A stretch of DNA of 56,501 nucleotides, from contig MEKT01000025.1 of NCBI GenBank assembly GCA_001767435.1, positions 1 through 56,501 of the forward strand, in the 5' to 3' direction. Of the stretch, positions 10,501 through 56,330 are shown piece after piece. Within the stretch, counting starts at the first letter, position 1, and the number at the start of each line of letters is the position of its first letter. The notes beneath the pieces were generated by a model, which worked only from the letters and a program-made list of their open reading frames with translations, did no database searches and had not been told where the DNA came from. Made by a program: the position numbers and the translations under genes. Source of the DNA: Acidobacteria bacterium RIFCSPLOWO2_02_FULL_65_29 (lineage in GTDB: Bacteria; Acidobacteriota; Vicinamibacteria; Vicinamibacterales; CAVVIG01).

Positions 10501-12186
10501 CTCCTCGCGGATCGCGTCGAGCGGCGGGTTGGTGACCTGCGCGAACACCTGCTTGAAGTAGTCGTAGAGCAGGCGCGGCCGATCCGAGAGCGGCGCGAGC
10601 GCCGTGTCGGTGCCCATCGATCCGATCGGCTCTTCGCCCGCCGTGGCCATGGGCCCCATGAGCAGGCGCAGGTCCTCGTGCGTGTAGCCGAAGAGTTGCT
10701 GGCGCCTGAGCACGGTCTCGTGGCTGGGCGCCGGCAGATACGGCGCCGGGTCGAGATCCTCGATGTCGATGAGGTGCGACAGCCACGCCTTGTACGGACG
10801 CGCCGAGGCGAGCTCGCGCTTGATCTCGTCGTCCGACACGATGCGCCCGCGCGACGTGTCGACGAGGAAAATGCGGCCCGGGTGCAGGCGCTCCTTGAGC
10901 ACGATGTCTTCGGGCGGAATGTCGAGCACGCCGACTTCCGACGCCATGATCACCAGGTCGTCCTTGGTGACGCAGTACCGCGACGGCCTGAGGCCGTTCC
11001 TGTCGAGCACCGCCCCGATCACCGTGCCGTCACTGAACGCGATCGACGCCGGGCCGTCCCACGGCTCCATCAGCGACGAGTGGTACTCGTAGAACGCCTT
11101 CAGCTCCTCTGACATCGTCTCGTGGCTCGACCACGGCTCGGGAATCATCATCAGGATGGCGTGCGGCAGCGACCGCCCGGTCATCACCAGGAACTCGAGG
11201 ACGTTGTCGAAGGTGGCCGTGTCGCTCCCGCCTTCGCGGATGACCGGCAGGACTTTCTTCAGGTCGTCGCCAAGGACGTCGGAGCGGAGCAGACCTTCGC
11301 GCGCGCGCATCCAGTTGATGTTGCCCGTGAGCGTGTTGATCTCGCCGTTGTGCGCGATGTAGCGGTACGGGTGCGCGAGCGGCCACGACGGGAAGGTGTT
11401 GGTGCTGAAGCGCTGGTGCACGAGTGACAGCGCCGACTGGAGGTCCGGATCGATCAGGTCCGGGAACATCGTCTCGATCTGGCTGGCCGTGAGCATGCCC
11501 TTGTAGATGAGCGTGTTCGACGACAGGCTCACGACGTAGAACGCCTTGCGCGCCTCGGCGGGGATGGCCAACGCGTCCACGGCGCGCTCGACGCGCTTTC
11601 TGATCACGTACAGCTTGCGCTCGAAGCGCGCGCGGGTCTCGGCGTCGGTCTGGCCCTCGACGTCAACGGGATAATCGACCGGGGCGCGGCCGCGGCCGAT
11701 GAAGAGCTGCCAGAACGCCGGCTCGACGGCCACCGCGCTCGGCCCGACCGGTGCGTCGTTGGTCGGCACGAGGCGCCAGCCGAGAAACAGCTGATCCTCG
11801 TCGGCCACGATGTCGGCGATGACCTGCTGAATGGCCTTCCGCGCACCCGCCTCGCGAGGCAGGAAGACGAGGCCCGCGCCGTACTCGCCGACGGGCGGCA
11901 GGGGTGCGGGCGCGACCTTGCGCAGAAATCGGTCGGGCATCTGCACGAGGATGCCGGCGCCGTCGCCCGTGTTGACCTCGCAGCCGCACGCGCCCCGGTG
12001 CTGCAGGTTCTTGAGGACCTGCAGCGATTTCTTCACGATGTCGTGCGACTTCCGGCCCTTGATGTCCACGACGAAGCCGACGCCGCAGGCGTCGCGCTCG
12101 TCGGCCGGGTCGTAGAGCCCCTGGGCGTCCGGGGGGCCTGGGGAATACGACGTCTCCGAGCGCTGGTGTTCAAGTTCGTTCGGCAT
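7549..12186 (-). CDS. gltB: Glutamate synthase large subunit (GltB)
   Basis: A 1545-residue enzyme of normal length for the alpha subunit. A class II glutamine amidotransferase domain follows a short propeptide: D-A-C-G-V-G-F puts the nucleophile at C34, which should become the N-terminus after cleavage. The central domain is followed by the FMN-binding TIM barrel ([10 protein letters not shown]-x-K) with the [3Fe-4S] cluster region C-x5-C-H-L-N-T-C-P-V-G. A right-handed beta-helix GXGXG domain ends the protein. It produces ammonia in the N-terminal domain, channels it to 2-oxoglutarate and works with GltD in the cytosol. An AT-rich stretch with a 15-bp palindrome lies about 80 bp upstream. 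Confidence 0.97.
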
Positions 12187-18898: not shown

Positions 18899-18989
18899 GG
18901 AGAGGTACCGAAGTGGTCGTAACGGGCGCGCCTCGAAAGCGTGTTGTCGGGTAACCGGCACGTGGGTTCGAATCCCACCCTCTCCGCCA
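18899..18989 (+). tRNA. tRNA-Ser(CGA)
   Basis: A 91-nt class II tRNA. The acceptor stem GGAGAGG (18899-18905) pairs with CCTCTCC (18979-18985), followed by G and an encoded CCA. The anticodon loop contains CTCGAAA, giving anticodon CGA, which reads UCG serine codons. A long variable arm (TTGTCGGGTAACCGGCAC region) is present as expected for tRNA-Ser, and the T-loop is TTCGAAT. A T-rich stretch follows at 18991-18999. The 3' end of this tRNA is duplicated near 37.86 kb. Confidence 0.93.
18969..18989 (+). other. Putative attachment site (left) in the tRNA-Ser 3' end
   Basis: The 21 bp at the tRNA 3' end, from the T-loop CGAATC to the CCA, recur with one mismatch at 37848-37868 in the same orientation. 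Integrases of the tyrosine family commonly recombine at exactly this part of tRNA genes, keeping the tRNA intact on one side. Confidence 0.45.
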
Positions 18990-49619: not shown

Positions 49620-52600
49620 TTACGGCATCGTGTCATCGACATTCGCCGGCTTGGTGTTCACGCTCGACGTTCGGCCTCCGTCGACCATGATCGTCACGTA
49701 GGGGAACTTCGCGGACGTCGACACCTGCACGGTTGCGATGTGCGACTGGTCTCCCGGATCCTTGCTCCACGTGCCGATGCCGCCAAACGACAGCGTGTCG
49801 TAGTCGCCCGGCGCGGCCGTGCGGGAATTGATGAACCCGGCCCAGAGCAGGCCCTGCATCCGGAAAGTCGCGTCTTTGGTGTGATTGACGTATTCGAACG
49901 ACGCCTGCCCATCTCCCGCCGGCAGGCGATAGCTGTACGAGAACTCGTCGCCGGTGGAGGCGACGACGCCTTTGGCGCTGCCCGCCCTCGCGAGGCGTGG
50001 CGCGTCCGATATCGACATGGCCTGCCACCGGAGAAACGGATCGAGCGCCGAGTCCGGACCGATGAGGATGTAGTTCGTGAGGTCGGTCGCGGGAAACTTG
50101 AAGCCTTCCGGAAACGGAATGTGGAGCTTCCCGTGGTAGCGAAAGACCATCTGACCGTTCACGCCTTTCTCGAATGACGCGGGACCCCGAAACGCGAAGG
50201 TCGCTTTGGGCGTCCGCGTCTCGATCCGCACCATGGCCAGCAGCCAGTTGGTGGTGATGAGACCTCGGCGAAGCAGCGGACCCGGCACCTTGCCGGTCTT
50301 GACGTCGACCACCCCGAGCGAAATGTCCAGCGGGTCGTCCAGGTACGTCACGCTGTCCATGACGTAGGTCGACTTCGGGAACCGGAGCATTTCGTTATGG
50401 CCCATCAGCCCGTCGGGGATGCGGTGCTTGAATGCGTCCGCGAACGACGACTGCTGGAGCGTGCGCAGCAACCCGCCGGGCGGCATCGCCTGAATGGCAA
50501 TCGGGACCGAATCGCCGAAACGCTCGCCGAACTGCACTTGAAAGCGCCCGACCAGATGCGATCGGCCCTTGGTGTGACCGCCGAGCTCTGGGGCGTTCAG
50601 CGAAAAATCGTCGCCGAACGAATTGTTGTGAACCGATGTGGTGAATTCACGAATGGCGTTGGTCGGGAACTCGGGCACCAACACGCCGGCGTCGGCCGCC
50701 TCCGGCGCCTTGGTGCTGATGCGAATGTGCGGATGAAGCGCGGTGCCGTCCGCCGGGATGCTGGCGAAGCTGCCTGATGGCCCGGTAAACGGCAGCGGGA
50801 ACCGGATCGGCACGTTGAGGACGCTCAGCGGGATGAAGGTCGTCGCGTAGCAGGTGTAGTCCAGCTTGCCGTCGGGCCGCTGTTCGAACTTCGCCCAGGT
50901 CGATCCGTACTCGCCCGGGAACTTGAGCGGATCCCTGGGCAGCGCGGGGTTGACGGCGGCGAGCGAGAGAATGGCGGAATTCAGGAAGAAGAACTTGTAC
51001 TGGAGGTTGGTGACCTCGCCCGTCACGAGGTTCAGATCGCCGGAGGAACGCTCCGCCGCCGAATCCATCACGCGATGCTCGATGGCCGGCAGCTTGAAGA
51101 ACTGCGGCGCCGACAGCCGCGAATCGTCTCCAGCGAGTCCGTTGCCGTGCGTCACCTCGAAGTGGCTGACGTCGTTCACGGGCGGAGAGAACGTGATCCG
51201 GACCGAGCCGCCGAGATGGGTGTCGAGCATCGCGAGCCCGCCGAACAGCAGCTGGCCCGTCAAGCCGTACTCGACTTCCGCCTTGTCGGTCGTGTGGACC
51301 GCGCGAAGCGCGTCGCCATAGTAGCTGGCCGCCTTGTTCAGCGGAAGCTCCTGCTCGAGGTCTGGCGGAAGCTTCAGCGTCCAGCGTTCCGGGGTCGACC
51401 CGCTGCTCGGCGGCGTGGCGGGCCGCTTGCGGAAAATGGCGCCGACCACCATGTTGACCAGGAAGCCGGCCATCGTGGACCAGACCTTGAGCGTGGCGAA
51501 GGCGGACGCGACGTAGCCGGCCAGCGTGCGGTACTCAGGCCCTTCGGCGCCTTGATACATCGCCACGGCGTCGCTCTGGATCGTCGTGCCGACGTCGATC
51601 GGCTCGAAGGCGGTGTCGTAGGTCCGGTTGATGAGATCGAGGAGCTCGTTGGCGATGAGCGCCTGGCCGGTCTTGCCGGGCGAGTATCCGTTGAGCGAAT
51701 AGAAGCCGCCCAGGAAATCCGCGGTGAGCGTTCGAGAGCCCACGGCGATGCCCTCTTTGCCGACCCGCCGGAAGAGACCGCCCAGGTCGTACACGATCGC
51801 CCCGTGCTCCACCGCGACGGAGGTCAGCGCGGCATTGAGCGACTGCACACGGCTGCTGATCTCGGCTGCGGCCGTCGCGCGGAGAACCGAGCCCGCAGGA
51901 AGCGGTCCCGACCGCCCGCTCATGAGCTGGTAGCCGATTTCCGTGAGGCCGTTGACCGTCACTCGGGCTCCGCTCGCCAGGCCGTACTCGCGGCCGAGCA
52001 CCTTGGGCGGAAGCTTGACCACACGCGCGGCCGCCGCGGCGGACGAGAAGTGCGCGGTGTCCATCGGATCGGGGATGGTCATCGCGACGACCTCGCACCC
52101 GGCGTCCCGAAGCGCCTTGACGATTCGGGCGTAGTTGGCGCGAAATGCCGCCGCGTCGGGAATCGACCCGGCGCTGCCGCTGATGGCCGCCTCGAGGACC
52201 TCGGCATAGCCCAGCTCGACGATCGCGAATGTCGGCTTTCGTTCGAGCGCGTACTCGAGCGCGGTCGGCAGGGAGGCATCGCCGCGGAGGAGGCCCGGCA
52301 TGCCCAGAATGAAGTTGATGGCGGTCTGCTGGGCGTCGCCCGAGTGGATGAGTGGAGGCACCGGGCGCCGTGCGACGGCGTCGGCGACCGTCAGGCCCGG
52401 CACCGAAAGGTTCGAGATCGGCGCCGAGGGCGGAAAGTCCTCGAGCACGGTCGTCTGATGATCGAACGGAATCCGGACAGGCAGCCGGGGAAAGCCATGA
52501 GCGTCGCCGAGTCCAGGCGCCTGAACGAGCGGCTGCCGGAACTCGACCTTCATCTGCCGCGCCATCTGCGCGGGGAAGCTTTCGCGCTGGTCGCCTTCCG

Positions 52601-52679
52601 ACACACTGAAGTTGGTCATCCCGGCCCCGAGGCTTTCGCCCAGCACCAGAAAGCTCGTGGCATCCAGCATCTTCGTCAT
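49620..52679 (-). CDS. Large GDSL/SGNH-like protein with beta-rich C-terminal region
   Basis: A 1019-residue protein. The first about 370 residues resemble an SGNH/GDSL hydrolase: V-L-G-E-S-L-G-A-G at residues 11-19 (G-D-S-L-like block with Ser), V-E-L-G-Y-A-E-V as block III and a final Y-S-L-N-G-Y-S-P-G-K-T-G where the catalytic D-x-x-H would be; the histidine is absent. Residues about 430-1019 are beta-rich with no recognised domain (S-F-G-D-D-F-S-L-N-A-P and W-S-K-D-P-G-D-Q-S-H). No signal peptide is visible. AGGAAAA precedes ATG 52679. It follows the lactate permease gene by 117 bp on the same strand. Hydrolase activity is doubtful. Confidence 0.7.
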   Translation of the reverse strand: MTKMLDATSFLVLGESLGAGMTNFSVSEGDQRESFPAQMARQMKVEFRQPLVQAPGLGDAHGFPRLPVRIPFDHQTTVLEDFPPSAPISNLSVPGLTVADAVARRPVPPLIHSGDAQQTAINFILGMPGLLRGDASLPTALEYALERKPTFAIVELGYAEVLEAAISGSAGSIPDAAAFRANYARIVKALRDAGCEVVAMTIPDPMDTAHFSSAAAAARVVKLPPKVLGREYGLASGARVTVNGLTEIGYQLMSGRSGPLPAGSVLRATAAAEISSRVQSLNAALTSVAVEHGAIVYDLGGLFRRVGKEGIAVGSRTLTADFLGGFYSLNGYSPGKTGQALIANELLDLINRTYDTAFEPIDVGTTIQSDAVAMYQGAEGPEYRTLAGYVASAFATLKVWSTMAGFLVNMVVGAIFRKRPATPPSSGSTPERWTLKLPPDLEQELPLNKAASYYGDALRAVHTTDKAEVEYGLTGQLLFGGLAMLDTHLGGSVRITFSPPVNDVSHFEVTHGNGLAGDDSRLSAPQFFKLPAIEHRVMDSAAERSSGDLNLVTGEVTNLQYKFFFLNSAILSLAAVNPALPRDPLKFPGEYGSTWAKFEQRPDGKLDYTCYATTFIPLSVLNVPIRFPLPFTGPSGSFASIPADGTALHPHIRISTKAPEAADAGVLVPEFPTNAIREFTTSVHNNSFGDDFSLNAPELGGHTKGRSHLVGRFQVQFGERFGDSVPIAIQAMPPGGLLRTLQQSSFADAFKHRIPDGLMGHNEMLRFPKSTYVMDSVTYLDDPLDISLGVVDVKTGKVPGPLLRRGLITTNWLLAMVRIETRTPKATFAFRGPASFEKGVNGQMVFRYHGKLHIPFPEGFKFPATDLTNYILIGPDSALDPFLRWQAMSISDAPRLARAGSAKGVVASTGDEFSYSYRLPAGDGQASFEYVNHTKDATFRMQGLLWAGFINSRTAAPGDYDTLSFGGIGTWSKDPGDQSHIATVQVSTSAKFPYVTIMVDGGRTSSVNTKPANVDDTMP

Positions 52680-52796
52680 GCGGTTTTCCTGTGCGTGCCT
52701 CTGAGCGTGGGCGTCGACCACGCGGTGAACGACTGGAACGGCGGTGCGATCCATGCGCTTGATCTCCGGGGCGCGCTCGCGCGCGATTCCAAACCT

Positions 52797-54482
52797 TTAT
52801 TTCGGCGGCACCACTGGCACCCAGCCGGGGACGACGTACGCGTAGAGCATCGAGATGATGCCCATCACGACCATCAGAATCACGCTGTGCTTGATCGTGA
52901 ACCGGAACAGCCGGCTTTCATCGGCCGAGGTCATCCCGGTGGCGGCCACGGCGACCGCAATGCTCTGGAGGGAGATCATCTTCCCCATGACGCCGGCCGC
53001 GGAGTTCACCGACGCGGTGAGAATGGGATTGAGTCCGAGTGCGTTCGCCGTCACGACCTGCAGGTTGCCGAAGAGCGCGTTGGCCGAGGTGTCGCTGCCT
53101 GTCAGGAATACGCCCAGCCAGCCGATGACGGCGCTGAAGAACGGGAAGGCGGCGCCGCTCGCCGCGAGCGCCAGGCCGAGCGTGGACGTCATGCCCGAAT
53201 AGTTCATCACGTAGGCCAGGCCCAGCATCGACGCGATCGTGGCCATCGCGAGCGACAGCTGCTTGAAGGTGGCCTTGTAGATGCCCACGAACTGCTTGGG
53301 CCTCACGCCGAGCAGCAGGCCCGCGGCAATCGTCGCCAGGAAGCACGACGTGCCCGACGCGCTCAGCCAGTTGAGCGTGAACACGGCCCCATATGGAGCG
53401 GGCGCCGTCGTGACCGGCGGGATTCGCGTAATCAGGTTGTGCAGGCCCGGCACGTTCAGCCCGTTCAGCACGTTGGCGTTCGTGGGCAGGAATGCGGGGA
53501 GCAAACCGTTGGTCCAGCGGTCGATCGCCGCCTTGGTCGACGGCTCCCCCCACGCGAGGACGAACACGACGAGCAGCGCGTACGGGAGCCACGCCATGAC
53601 GAGCTCCTGCCCGGAGTGCTTTTTCATCGCCGTGGTCGCGGCGTGTTCGCCGTCGAGCCGCATGATTGTTTTCGGCTTCCACAGCTTCATCACCGCCACC
53701 ATCACGATGATGCACGTCAGCGAGCTCAGGATGTCGGTCAGCTCGGGCCCGAGGGTGTTCGACACGAAGAACTGCATCCCGGCAAAGGAGATACCGCACG
53801 CGAGAATGGCCGGCAGGACCTCGAGCGCGCGCGCCGGGCCCGCCATGACCACGATCAGGTAGCCGGGAATAATCACCGACACCATCGCGCACAGGCGTCC
53901 CACCATGGCGCTCAGCTGCATCACGGGCAGACCCGTCACACCCGCGAGCGTGGTCACCGGAATGCCGATCGATCCGAACGCGACGGGCGCGGTGTTGGCG
54001 AGGAGGCAGATGCCCGCCGCGTAGAACGGATTGAAGCCGAGCCCGGCCAGCATCGCGCCCGACACGGCCACCGGCGCGCCGAAGCCCGCGGCGCCCTCGA
54101 TGAACGCGCCGAACGAGAACGCGATGAAGATGGCCTGCAGGCGCCGATCGTCGGTCAGGCTGCCGACCGAGTCCTTGATGATCTCGAACTTGCCGGTGTC
54201 CACCGCGAGACGGTAGAGCATGATCGACGAGAAGACGATCCAGGCGATGGGGAACAGCCCGAAGGCCGCGCCGTACACGGCCGAGATCACGGCGAGCTGC
54301 ACCGGCATGCCGTAGACGGTCAGCGACACGACGAGCGCCGAGCCGAGCGCCGCGAGGGCCGACTGCCAGGCTGGCTTGCGCCACACGCCCAGCATGAGGA
54401 ACAGCACGACAAGGGGAATGGCGGCCACGGGGGCCGAGAGGCCCAGGCTGCCGCCGACGGGCTCGTAGTTGTGCTGCCACAT
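52797..54482 (-). CDS. lldP: L-lactate permease (LctP family)
   Basis: A 561-residue membrane protein with twelve or more helices. It opens with M-W-Q-H-N-Y-E-P, a hallmark of LldP/GlcA permeases, and contains G-A-F-I-E-G-A-A-G-F-G-A-P-V-A-V and F-L-T-G-S-D-T-S-A-N-A-L-F-G-N-L-Q, both strongly conserved in this family. It imports lactate or glycolate with protons. A 17-bp imperfect hairpin lies in its leader, and the selenoprotein gene is located 274 bp upstream on the same strand. Confidence 0.96.
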   Translation of the reverse strand: MWQHNYEPVGGSLGLSAPVAAIPLVVLFLMLGVWRKPAWQSALAALGSALVVSLTVYGMPVQLAVISAVYGAAFGLFPIAWIVFSSIMLYRLAVDTGKFEIIKDSVGSLTDDRRLQAIFIAFSFGAFIEGAAGFGAPVAVSGAMLAGLGFNPFYAAGICLLANTAPVAFGSIGIPVTTLAGVTGLPVMQLSAMVGRLCAMVSVIIPGYLIVVMAGPARALEVLPAILACGISFAGMQFFVSNTLGPELTDILSSLTCIIVMVAVMKLWKPKTIMRLDGEHAATTAMKKHSGQELVMAWLPYALLVVFVLAWGEPSTKAAIDRWTNGLLPAFLPTNANVLNGLNVPGLHNLITRIPPVTTAPAPYGAVFTLNWLSASGTSCFLATIAAGLLLGVRPKQFVGIYKATFKQLSLAMATIASMLGLAYVMNYSGMTSTLGLALAASGAAFPFFSAVIGWLGVFLTGSDTSANALFGNLQVVTANALGLNPILTASVNSAAGVMGKMISLQSIAVAVAATGMTSADESRLFRFTIKHSVILMVVMGIISMLYAYVVPGWVPVVPPK

Positions 54483-54503
54483 GTGTGCGTCAGCTCCTTG
54501 GAC

Positions 54504-54571
54504 GGTAGCGAAGCTTCGCCTTTAACCGCCGAGTAACGGGCCCGTGGATGGACCGGCGAATCTTCGCTACC
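54504..54571 (-). promoter_or_regulatory. Hairpin in the lldP leader
   Basis: GGTAGCGAAGCTTCGCC (54504-54520) pairs with GGCGAATCTTCGCTACC (54555-54571), 16 of 17 bases, around a 34-nt loop. It starts 21 bp before the lldP ATG and could be an operator or an RNA switch element. Confidence 0.55.
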
Positions 54572-54756
54572 AGGCGAATTTCAACAGACCCGGCAAGTTA
54601 TACCCGAACCAGGCCTGTTGGACCCAGTGGTTTCGTGGATCTCGACGAATCTCGATCTGGATCGGGAGGTCGGTCCTGGAGGGTCCGCGGGACCTTCATC
54701 GTGGACGCGACGCGTTGAACGGACGTCTGGCGGTTCAGCAAGCGCGGACGCGTGGG

Positions 54757-54990
54757 TCAACGGCGCACGAGGGCCCGCCGCACGGCGGCCAGCACGTCCT
54801 GGTCGGTCGGGAAGAGGTCCCCGGTCTTCTCGGCGACCCGCTCGTCGCCCACCCACACGGAGAACTCCCCTCGCGCGCCTTCCACGAGCGCCGTGTGGGC
54901 GCCAGTCTCAGACTTGATCAACGCCGCCGCACGGGCAGCGCGAGGCTGGTAGTTTCACACTTTGCAGTAGCGAATGCGAATCGTTGGCAT
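54757..54990 (-). CDS. SelW/Rdx-family selenoprotein with in-frame UGA (CxxU)
   Basis: Reading from ATG 54990 gives 77 residues if the UGA at 54955-54957 is read as selenocysteine: R-Y-C9-K-V-U12-N-Y, then P-R-A-A-R-A-A-A-L-I, L-V-E-G-A-R-G-E-F-S-V-W-V and L-F-P-T-D-Q-D-V-L-A-A-V-R, ending at TGA 54757. This is the SelT/SelW/SelH (Rdx) thioredoxin-like fold with the family's C-x-x-U redox site in the right place after the first strand. AAGGA precedes the ATG by about 9 bp. Conserved sequence continues in the same frame after the UGA, which a dead gene would not need. A stem-loop follows the UGA at the proper distance. Standard gene finding misses it. Confidence 0.85.
54921..54943 (-). promoter_or_regulatory. 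Probable bacterial SECIS stem-loop
   Basis: On the minus strand GCGCTGCC-CGTGC-GGCGGCGT forms an 8-bp stem with a 5-nt loop containing GU. The loop begins about 22 nt after the UGA, within the 16-37 nt window known for bacterial SECIS elements. Confidence 0.6.
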
Positions 54991-55091
54991 CAGCGATCCT
55001 TTCTGGCACCGCGATACTAGCCGATGTCGCTGCGAATGAAGCAAGTGTGAATTCCATTGTTTGCTGGCGGAGCCGGCCTACTAGGAGACTA

Positions 55092-55128
55092 CTAGGAGCG
55101 TGTTCACATTTCTCGGACACGCTCCTAG
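55092..55128. repeat. Perfect 12-bp inverted repeat at the end of the DUF1111 gene
   Basis: CTAGGAGCGTGT (55092-55103) and ACACGCTCCTAG (55117-55128) with a 13-nt loop overlap the stop codon of the di-haem gene. A short direct repeat CTACTAGGAG follows. There is no U-run; it may still stop transcription or be a dispersed repeat. Confidence 0.6.
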
Positions 55129-56330
55129 AGGGACCGAAGGAAGGCGAGCAGGGCGGCGGCGTCCGAGGGCGTCAGCGCGGCGAACCCTTGTCTGGCGAGA
55201 TCCGCTTCGTTTCGATGCGCGCGGATGGCATCCTGAACATCCGCCGCCCGGCCATCGTGCAGAAGGGGACGCCTGAAGCGCAGCCCCCACAGGGCGGGCG
55301 TCCGGATCTCCTCGGGCTCGGCCGACTCCTGCCGGATCCCGTCGCCGGTGCCGACGTCGTGCAGAAGCAGATCGGAGAACAGCGGCACCGGTTTCCTGTT
55401 GAACGCCGGATGCGAGCTCGGTCCGGTGGTCAGCGACGGCACGTGACACGCGGCGCACCCGATGGCGGCGAATACGCGCTCGCCGCTTCTGACGGTCTCG
55501 TCGATGGCCGCGCGGCCCACGGGGGCGAGAAATTTCATGAACGCCTCGAAGTTGTCGATCCCACGTTTGCCCGTGAGCGGATCGCGTGCGTCTTCAGGAT
55601 CGGGCCGAGGATCGCAGAGCCGCATCTGGGGCGGCGTGACGCCCACGGCCGACTCCTGCGGGAACAGATCGTTGGTGATGCCCATCTCGTTGCGATACGC
55701 GTCGGCGCCGAACGTCAAGAGCGTCGCCTGCTGCGACTTCCACCCAAAGCGGCCGACGCGGCGTGCGCCGGTCCCAACGTCGGTGACGATCGCGGCGCGG
55801 CCGCTCACGCCGTCGCGGCTCAGATCCAACGGATCCTCGAGCGCCAGCAGCGTCTCGTCGGCAATGGCCTCGACCAGGCCGGCGCCAAACAGGGGAATCG
55901 GGGCGCGGCGTGCGACGATGTTGGTGTCGGGCGGCATGACGGCCTGGCACGTGTGATTCGGCGTCGAGAACATGTGCACGAGCGTGTCGCCCGCGGCGTT
56001 CAGCCCGCGCACCGTGTTCGACTGGTCGCGAATCGCGGCGCGCGTTTCGAGCATCACGCCGCCGCCGCCGATCGCCGGCAGATCGTGACACACGGCGCAG
56101 CTCGTGCCGTTGAACGCGGGCCCGAGGCCGTCTTCCGACGTTTCCACTTCGGTGAAGTCGTCCAGCCCCAGGCGAAACTCCGAGAACTCGACCGCCGAGA
56201 TGCCCGGCAGCGGGTCGCCAGGCTGAAGCGTCCGCTCCTGGCCCCGGACGGCAATCGCCCCGAGCCACACGCCGAGCCCGAATGCCGCGGCGCCGGCGGC
56301 CGTCGCCGCGGATCGTCGCGACGCGCTCAT
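55125..56330 (-). CDS. DUF1111 di-haem oxidoreductase-like cytochrome c
   Basis: A 401-residue exported protein. The Tat/Sec-like signal region (about 1-28) precedes two c-type haem motifs, S-C-A-V-C-H (about 78-83) and G-C-A-A-C-H (about 310-315), spaced as in the DUF1111/DHOR family. Conserved segments include G-L-G-P-A-F-N-G-T-S-C, F-G-A-G-L-V-E-A-I and L-L-H-D-G-R-A. The family is related to cytochrome c peroxidases and MauG. The ATG at 56330 overlaps the upstream cupredoxin gene stop by 4 bp, so both act together. Confidence 0.9.
   Translation of the reverse strand: MSASRRSAATAAGAAAFGLGVWLGAIAVRGQERTLQPGDPLPGISAVEFSEFRLGLDDFTEVETSEDGLGPAFNGTSCAVCHDLPAIGGGGVMLETRAAIRDQSNTVRGLNAAGDTLVHMFSTPNHTCQAVMPPDTNIVARRAPIPLFGAGLVEAIADETLLALEDPLDLSRDGVSGRAAIVTDVGTGARRVGRFGWKSQQATLLTFGADAYRNEMGITNDLFPQESAVGVTPPQMRLCDPRPDPEDARDPLTGKRGIDNFEAFMKFLAPVGRAAIDETVRSGERVFAAIGCAACHVPSLTTGPSSHPAFNRKPVPLFSDLLLHDVGTGDGIRQESAEPEEIRTPALWGLRFRRPLLHDGRAADVQDAIRAHRNEADLARQGFAALTPSDAAALLAFLRSL

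Follow-up and report, generated by a model that had tools for sequence, protein, structure and literature searches.

The stretch of DNA analyzed here (the window) comprises 56,501 nucleotides of contig MEKT01000025.1 from Acidobacteria bacterium RIFCSPLOWO2_02_FULL_65_29, and carries on its minus strand a short gene whose reading frame contains an internal UGA (Table 1). A sequence-only reading of this region had proposed a selenoprotein of the SelW/Rdx type in a frame running from the ATG through R-Y-C-K-V, the UGA and N-Y to a terminal TGA, and translation confirms this frame. Its first eleven codons read MPTIRIRYCKV and, past the UGA, it continues as NYQPRAAR... to the TGA at 54759-54757. 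The resulting read-through protein, MPTIRIRYCKV-U-NYQPRAARAAALIKSETG..., has C-K-V-U at residues 9–12, with the UGA in the Sec position of SelW-like C-x-x-U sites, as that reading had stated; the ribosome-binding site that it named is likewise recognizable by eye ahead of the ATG. Scans for a promoter and a terminator found nothing. The same-strand neighbors, namely a di-haem oxidoreductase gene upstream and an L-lactate permease gene downstream, hint at no function for the selW-like gene. A plus-strand open reading frame that overlaps it (54544-55020) was rejected as the true gene, given that it has no Pfam match and a GC3 of 0.67, as against 0.83–0.93 in five other ORFs of the window.

Table 1. 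Features of the selW-like locus (positions in the window)
Feature	Positions	Strand	Details
selW-like ORF	54757..54990	minus	ATG at 54990 to stop TGA at 54759-54757; 77 residues with Sec at position 12 (translation with TGA = U)
In-frame UGA for Sec12, completing the C-x-x-U redox motif	54955..54957	minus	UGA in 46/46 readable genomes and 10/10 other-lineage loci
Cys9 codon, first half of the C-x-x-U motif	54964..54966	minus	Column invariant in alignments A2 (24 rows) and A4 (11 rows)
Ribosome-binding site AAGGA	about 54997..55001	minus	6 nt upstream of the ATG; by eye
Putative bacterial SECIS hairpin	54921..54941	minus	8-bp stem, 5-nt loop CGUGC at 54933-54929; from folds, covariation and loop codon

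Other features of the neighborhood include two inverted repeats that were recognized by eye. The intergenic stretch 55055-55140, between the di-haem oxidoreductase gene and the selW-like gene, includes an inverted repeat that is long and perfect (CTAGGAGCGTGT / ACACGCTCCTAG); at an E of 1 or better, the source genome has 20 matches to this stretch, counting the stretch itself, so that some of it belongs to a dispersed repeat. The second (GTAGCGAAG ... CTTCGCTAC) lies at 54505-54570, in the gap between the selW-like and lactate permease genes. A 1153-codon open frame on the plus strand (51075-54536), antisense to the lactate permease gene and to part of the gene at 49620-52754, is probably a shadow frame of high-GC coding sequence.

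With Cys substituted for Sec, the read-through protein matches the Pfam Rdx profile (PF10262) at 42.3 bits against a cut-off of 22.6 (E 9e-11), and the match spans residues 3–71, covering the UGA as well as the downstream region to which the sequence-only reading had assigned the Rdx domain. Over the whole source genome this profile has a single match, the window gene itself, with one TGA inside. Two NCBIfam models, also searched with Cys for Sec, are TIGR02174 (CXXU_selWTH), which is matched at 32 bits (E 1.1e-7) and does not reach its curated cut-off of 34.2, and NF041051 (SelTWH_Campy), which is matched at 54.5 bits (E 1e-14) and does not reach its cut-off of 88; the window protein, the one to which this comparison with curated cut-offs applies, is hence not filed under either model. 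At E 0.001 or better, NF041051 is matched by all 24 aligned members of the group and TIGR02174 by 23 of them. The AlphaFold2 model (mean pLDDT 94.9) adopts a thioredoxin-like fold, in which Cys9-Lys-Val-Sec12 follows a predicted strand at residues 4–8, placing the C-x-x-U site after the first strand as in Rdx/SelW proteins. Its PDB matches with an E of 0.001 or better number 22, including entries titled as selenoprotein W-related (2fa8 and 2p0g), MIEN1 and others with uninformative titles. TM values to the query range from 0.83 to 0.88 for 3dex, 2ojl, 2fa8, 2obk, 2oka and 2p0g, and mouse SelW (2npb; TM 0.67) ranks 23rd in the list of matches. The identity of the window protein to its 22 best PDB matches is 32% or less.

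The phyletic distribution of the gene was traced in a set of 198 genomes, which includes the source genome and reaches out to its phylum. An Rdx match is present in 53 of these, four of which (G022, G024, G060 and G084) possess a distinct Cys type with the motif C-T-Q-C. Among the remaining 49 genomes the active site is readable in 46, all of which show Y-C-x-x-UGA (47/47 when counted by readable locus) with an A directly 3' of the UGA (46/46); in the other three, either the N-terminal part is missing near a contig end (G113 and G132) or the match is partial (G106), and G083 contains two Rdx copies, of which one is readable and the other cut. A scan of GTDB genomes likewise recovered the UGA in each of the ten loci from MAGs titled as other lineages, namely Kofleriaceae, Deltaproteobacteria, Desulfobacteraceae, Desulfomonile, Denitrovibrio, "proteobacterium" and "bacterium". 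In a tree of 53 rows and only 76 columns, with 16 of the 48 inner branches drawn open and three Sec-type fragments of less than 70 residues omitted, the four Cys types group on one separate branch with a support of 100/100 and a length of 3.08. A check for Cys-containing orthologues at position 12, as suggested in the sequence-only reading, turned up none, in that no Cys version of the window gene's Rdx subfamily was found among the 198 genomes. With UGA at all readable sites, Sec is thus the norm for this subfamily and, as judged from these comparisons, the UGA of the selW-like gene is no local error. Genome G193 additionally encodes a second, divergent Rdx gene (L067; G193:C1:149510-149752) with Y-C-D-T-UGA and one additional residue past the site, and this gene also has a hairpin, with the loop AGUCU (by eye).

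Downstream of the UGA, the 8-bp stem that had been predicted at about 14 nt, with its loop at about 22 nt, indeed forms on folding: the stem starts 13 nt and the loop CGUGC 21 nt past the UGA, at -13.4 kcal/mol. These values conform to the published bSECIS rule which, as worded in the legend to Figure 2 of PMC13188914, specifies a loop of 3–9 nt with a G in its first two places, a stem of 4–16 bp, a spacing of 16–37 nt and an MFE of -7.5 or less. Taken alone, the fold is not beyond chance. When the 58 nt starting at the UGA were shuffled 200 times, 26 of the shuffled sequences equalled or surpassed the native fold (z -1.28), and simplified bSECIS rules are passed by 148 of the 1445 TGA triplets in the window, 13 of which reach -14 kcal/mol, as against -13.4 at the selW-like site. 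Single-sequence folding was accordingly rejected as proof of a SECIS. An Rfam scan of the locus returned three matches, all far under their gathering scores and none a SECIS.

For this hairpin it is the relatives that decide. The 46 stretches of 45 nt that follow the UGA were merged to 40 distinct sequences and aligned gap-free, leaving out the Rdx matches without a site (L056, L060, L065 and L072) and the G193 paralogue L067. Across the distinct sequences, which are related and uncorrected for kinship, the stem is paired in 86.6% of cells, as against 34–54% when it is slid by 1–3 columns. Two-sided changes are seen in 5 of the 8 pairs, a number reached by 1 of 500 shuffles, and the cells with such changes number 27 against a shuffled mean of 9.2, a count reached by none of 500 shuffles. 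The pair with the most two-sided changes, 18-36, links two codons at their third positions; it is GC in 22 sequences, CG in 14, GU in one and UA in one, and is unpaired in two. Weighing against the stem are mismatches at pair 22-32 in 24 and at pair 17-37 in 17 of the 40 distinct sequences, and in six of the 46 rows the best fold has another shape, with a three-pair base. A second constraint lies in the loop, the first three places of which form a codon that is AGT, CGT, GGT, AGG or CGG in all 46 genes; its third base is T in 40, G in six and never C or A, whereas C takes the third place in 59%, and T in 11%, of the remaining Arg, Gly, AGY and AGR codons in these genes (kinship again uncorrected). 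Thus, while the hairpin is unremarkable by itself, covariation and the loop codon among its relatives carry the evidence for a putative SECIS.

The machinery for selenocysteine incorporation, on which the sequence-only reading had made its proposal depend, is represented in the source genome by selA (462 bits), selB (362 bits) and selD (365 bits), all on contig C60; the fourth component named there, selC, was not found in the assembly, which is 97% complete. The match to selB is full length and that to selD covers positions 2–310 of 311 and retains a UGA. The selA match is partial (model positions 116–442) and extends to position 11311 of a contig that ends at 11312, its 5' part being missing since the contig breaks off inside the gene. 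Across the genome set, selA (E 1e-25 or better) accompanies a non-Cys Rdx match in 47 of 49 genomes and is detected in 109 of the 149 others (Fisher p 4.4e-4, relatedness uncorrected), the two that have the gene without a selA match being G114 (83% complete) and G158 (92% complete). In two genomes of one related genus the selW-like gene is situated beside selA-selB-selD. The order in G019 is selA, an ORF of the size and place of selB (assigned by position), selD, a peroxiredoxin-like piece and selW, and in G003 selD, selB and selA come after selW, on the opposite strand.

Contig C60 offers further observations on UGA-containing genes. The selD gene (L080/L073; C60:7132-8055) has one in-frame UGA, in the context G-U-A-A-K, followed by two strong hairpins (by eye), one with the loop CGCGA at 14 nt, which lies outside the published spacing of 16–37 nt, and one with the loop GUG at 33 nt, which lies within it. 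Near selD, selB and selA is an additional selenoprotein gene (L073:13-954, with the UGA at about L073:601), whose product combines a DUF1573-like domain with an AhpC/TSA-redoxin domain (Pfam AhpC-TSA, 53 bits) bearing a U-x-x-C site; 16 nt after its UGA a loop AGUUG sits on a 6-bp stem (by eye).

The search for tRNA-Sec in the source assembly employed Rfam RF01852 (150 of 777 first-look candidates scored), two patterns, a purpose-built model from the tRNA-Sec genes of 22 relatives (150 of 5062 first-look candidates scored) and BLAST, and recovered no such gene. The best RF01852 match (C12:3864-3949) exceeds the gathering score but is called tRNA-Ser(TGA) by ARAGORN; the match on contig C106 (L037:1501-1589) receives no ARAGORN call and resembles a tRNA-Ser, its variable arm being long and its anticodon, by eye, CGA; and the candidate L123 is a tRNA-Ser(GCT). 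All three were rejected. The C106 tRNA would be a second tRNA-Ser(CGA), the other being at window position 18899. The looser of the patterns has matches in 123 of the 198 genomes; in some, the matches are solely of the three-mismatch, chance-like kind. That a divergent tRNA-Sec escapes the present models, in a species that retains selA, selB and selD along with three or more UGA-containing selenoprotein genes yet has no recognizable canonical selC, appears very unlikely to us.

The missing selC and the incomplete selA would also be accounted for if the gene were an inherited selenoprotein in a genome where the pathway has been lost or is being lost, with selC gone, selA broken and no decoding today. 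Against this, selA stops where the contig does, selB is intact over its full length and selD is nearly complete and keeps its own UGA; furthermore, in the relatives G027, G121, G134 and G157 selC begins just past the 5' end of selA, in the very part that is lost from the source assembly. This last point is offset by members of the same family, in 13 of the 14 of which, among those with both places listed, selC and selA are on separate contigs, so that the break in C60 provides only a possible reason for the missing selC. On balance, we consider loss of the pathway highly improbable. The view that the UGA is a true stop, with the gene being a decayed SelW pseudogene or a Cys codon having been turned into UGA by a sequencing error, might likewise appeal to the missing tRNA-Sec gene. 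However, it is already contradicted by the retention of the UGA in 45 other genomes besides the ten loci of other lineages, and must also contend with the intact frame past the UGA and the constraint on the SECIS pairs and loop codon, leaving it an exceedingly slim chance. Decoding of the UGA by a suppressor tRNA that inserts a residue other than Sec (Trp or Cys, for instance), an option raised by the missing selC for which no evidence was found, has a negligible probability in light of the presence of selA, selB and selD, the conserved hairpin that obeys the bacterial SECIS rules and the two other C60 genes in which an in-frame UGA is followed by a rule-fitting hairpin (by eye).

Comparison with described systems places the window protein close to the bacterial SelW-like selenoproteins (PF10262; TIGR02174; NF041051), which it resembles in length, in the N-terminal C-x-x-U, in the SECIS just past the UGA and in the thioredoxin-like fold, and from which it differs in scoring under both NCBIfam cut-offs. 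The Cys-type Rdx proteins with CTQC share its family and the place of the motif, but have Cys where the window gene has Sec and belong to a separate branch. Campylobacter jejuni SelW, a protein of 80–81 aa with a UGA from another lineage, is similar to the window protein by its published description, and the accessible part of that report gives Ribo-seq and proteomic evidence for translation past the UGA (PMC11955535). In a survey of the Sargasso Sea, to go by the available sections, SelW-like proteins were the most abundant selenoprotein family, with 48 genes; their function is called unclear there, with the motif and an interaction with glutathione suggesting a redox role (PMC1088965). A bacterial survey of 2006, in its available part, reports 10 SelW-like selenoproteins and notes that Cys homologs are scarce or absent in Sec-containing organisms; for Acidobacteria it gives four selenoproteins in three families that are unspecified in that part (PMC1794560). 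In the accessible text of a 2025 tool paper, one Acidobacteriota genome has three known selenoproteins (PMC12013277). Neither the phylum nor SelW occurs in the main text of PMC5029168, PMC5330540 and PMC13188914, and a search for literature on Solibacter usitatus with a selenoprotein found none. The literature on selenoproteins of Acidobacteria or Acidobacteriota, so far as its accessible portions, mostly from outside subscription journals, extend, yielded no description of the clade of the window gene.

Taken together, these observations make it almost certain, in our assessment, that the product of the locus is a SelW-like selenoprotein of 77 residues, belonging to the Rdx family and dependent on SelB and a bSECIS, for which we infer Sec decoding and a redox role. 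The components seen directly in the sequences are the Rdx homology across the UGA, the conservation of the UGA, the covarying hairpin, and selA (in part), selB and selD. Under the preferred mechanism, SelA, together with selenophosphate from SelD, would generate Sec-tRNA-Sec, and SelB would bind the hairpin, with the G at the second place of its loop, and bring Sec-tRNA-Sec to the UGA. The product would fold into a small thioredoxin-like protein, in which the Cys9-x-x-Sec12 pair may cycle between selenenylsulfide and thiol/selenol states, and may act as an oxidoreductase on a low-molecular-weight thiol or a protein thiol. Its redox role is probably that of a thiol/selenol oxidoreductase. With the UGA most likely encoding selenocysteine, a gene finder that treats it as a stop would truncate the gene.

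The gene is a new addition to a bacterial family known since at least 2005, and the underlying biology of this SelW-like selenoprotein gene is as expected. It scores under the cut-offs of both NCBIfam models, and is present in readable form in 46 of the 198 surrounding genomes. The covariation at synonymous sites, along with the loop codon, puts the bacterial SECIS rule to a neat test on evolutionary grounds.
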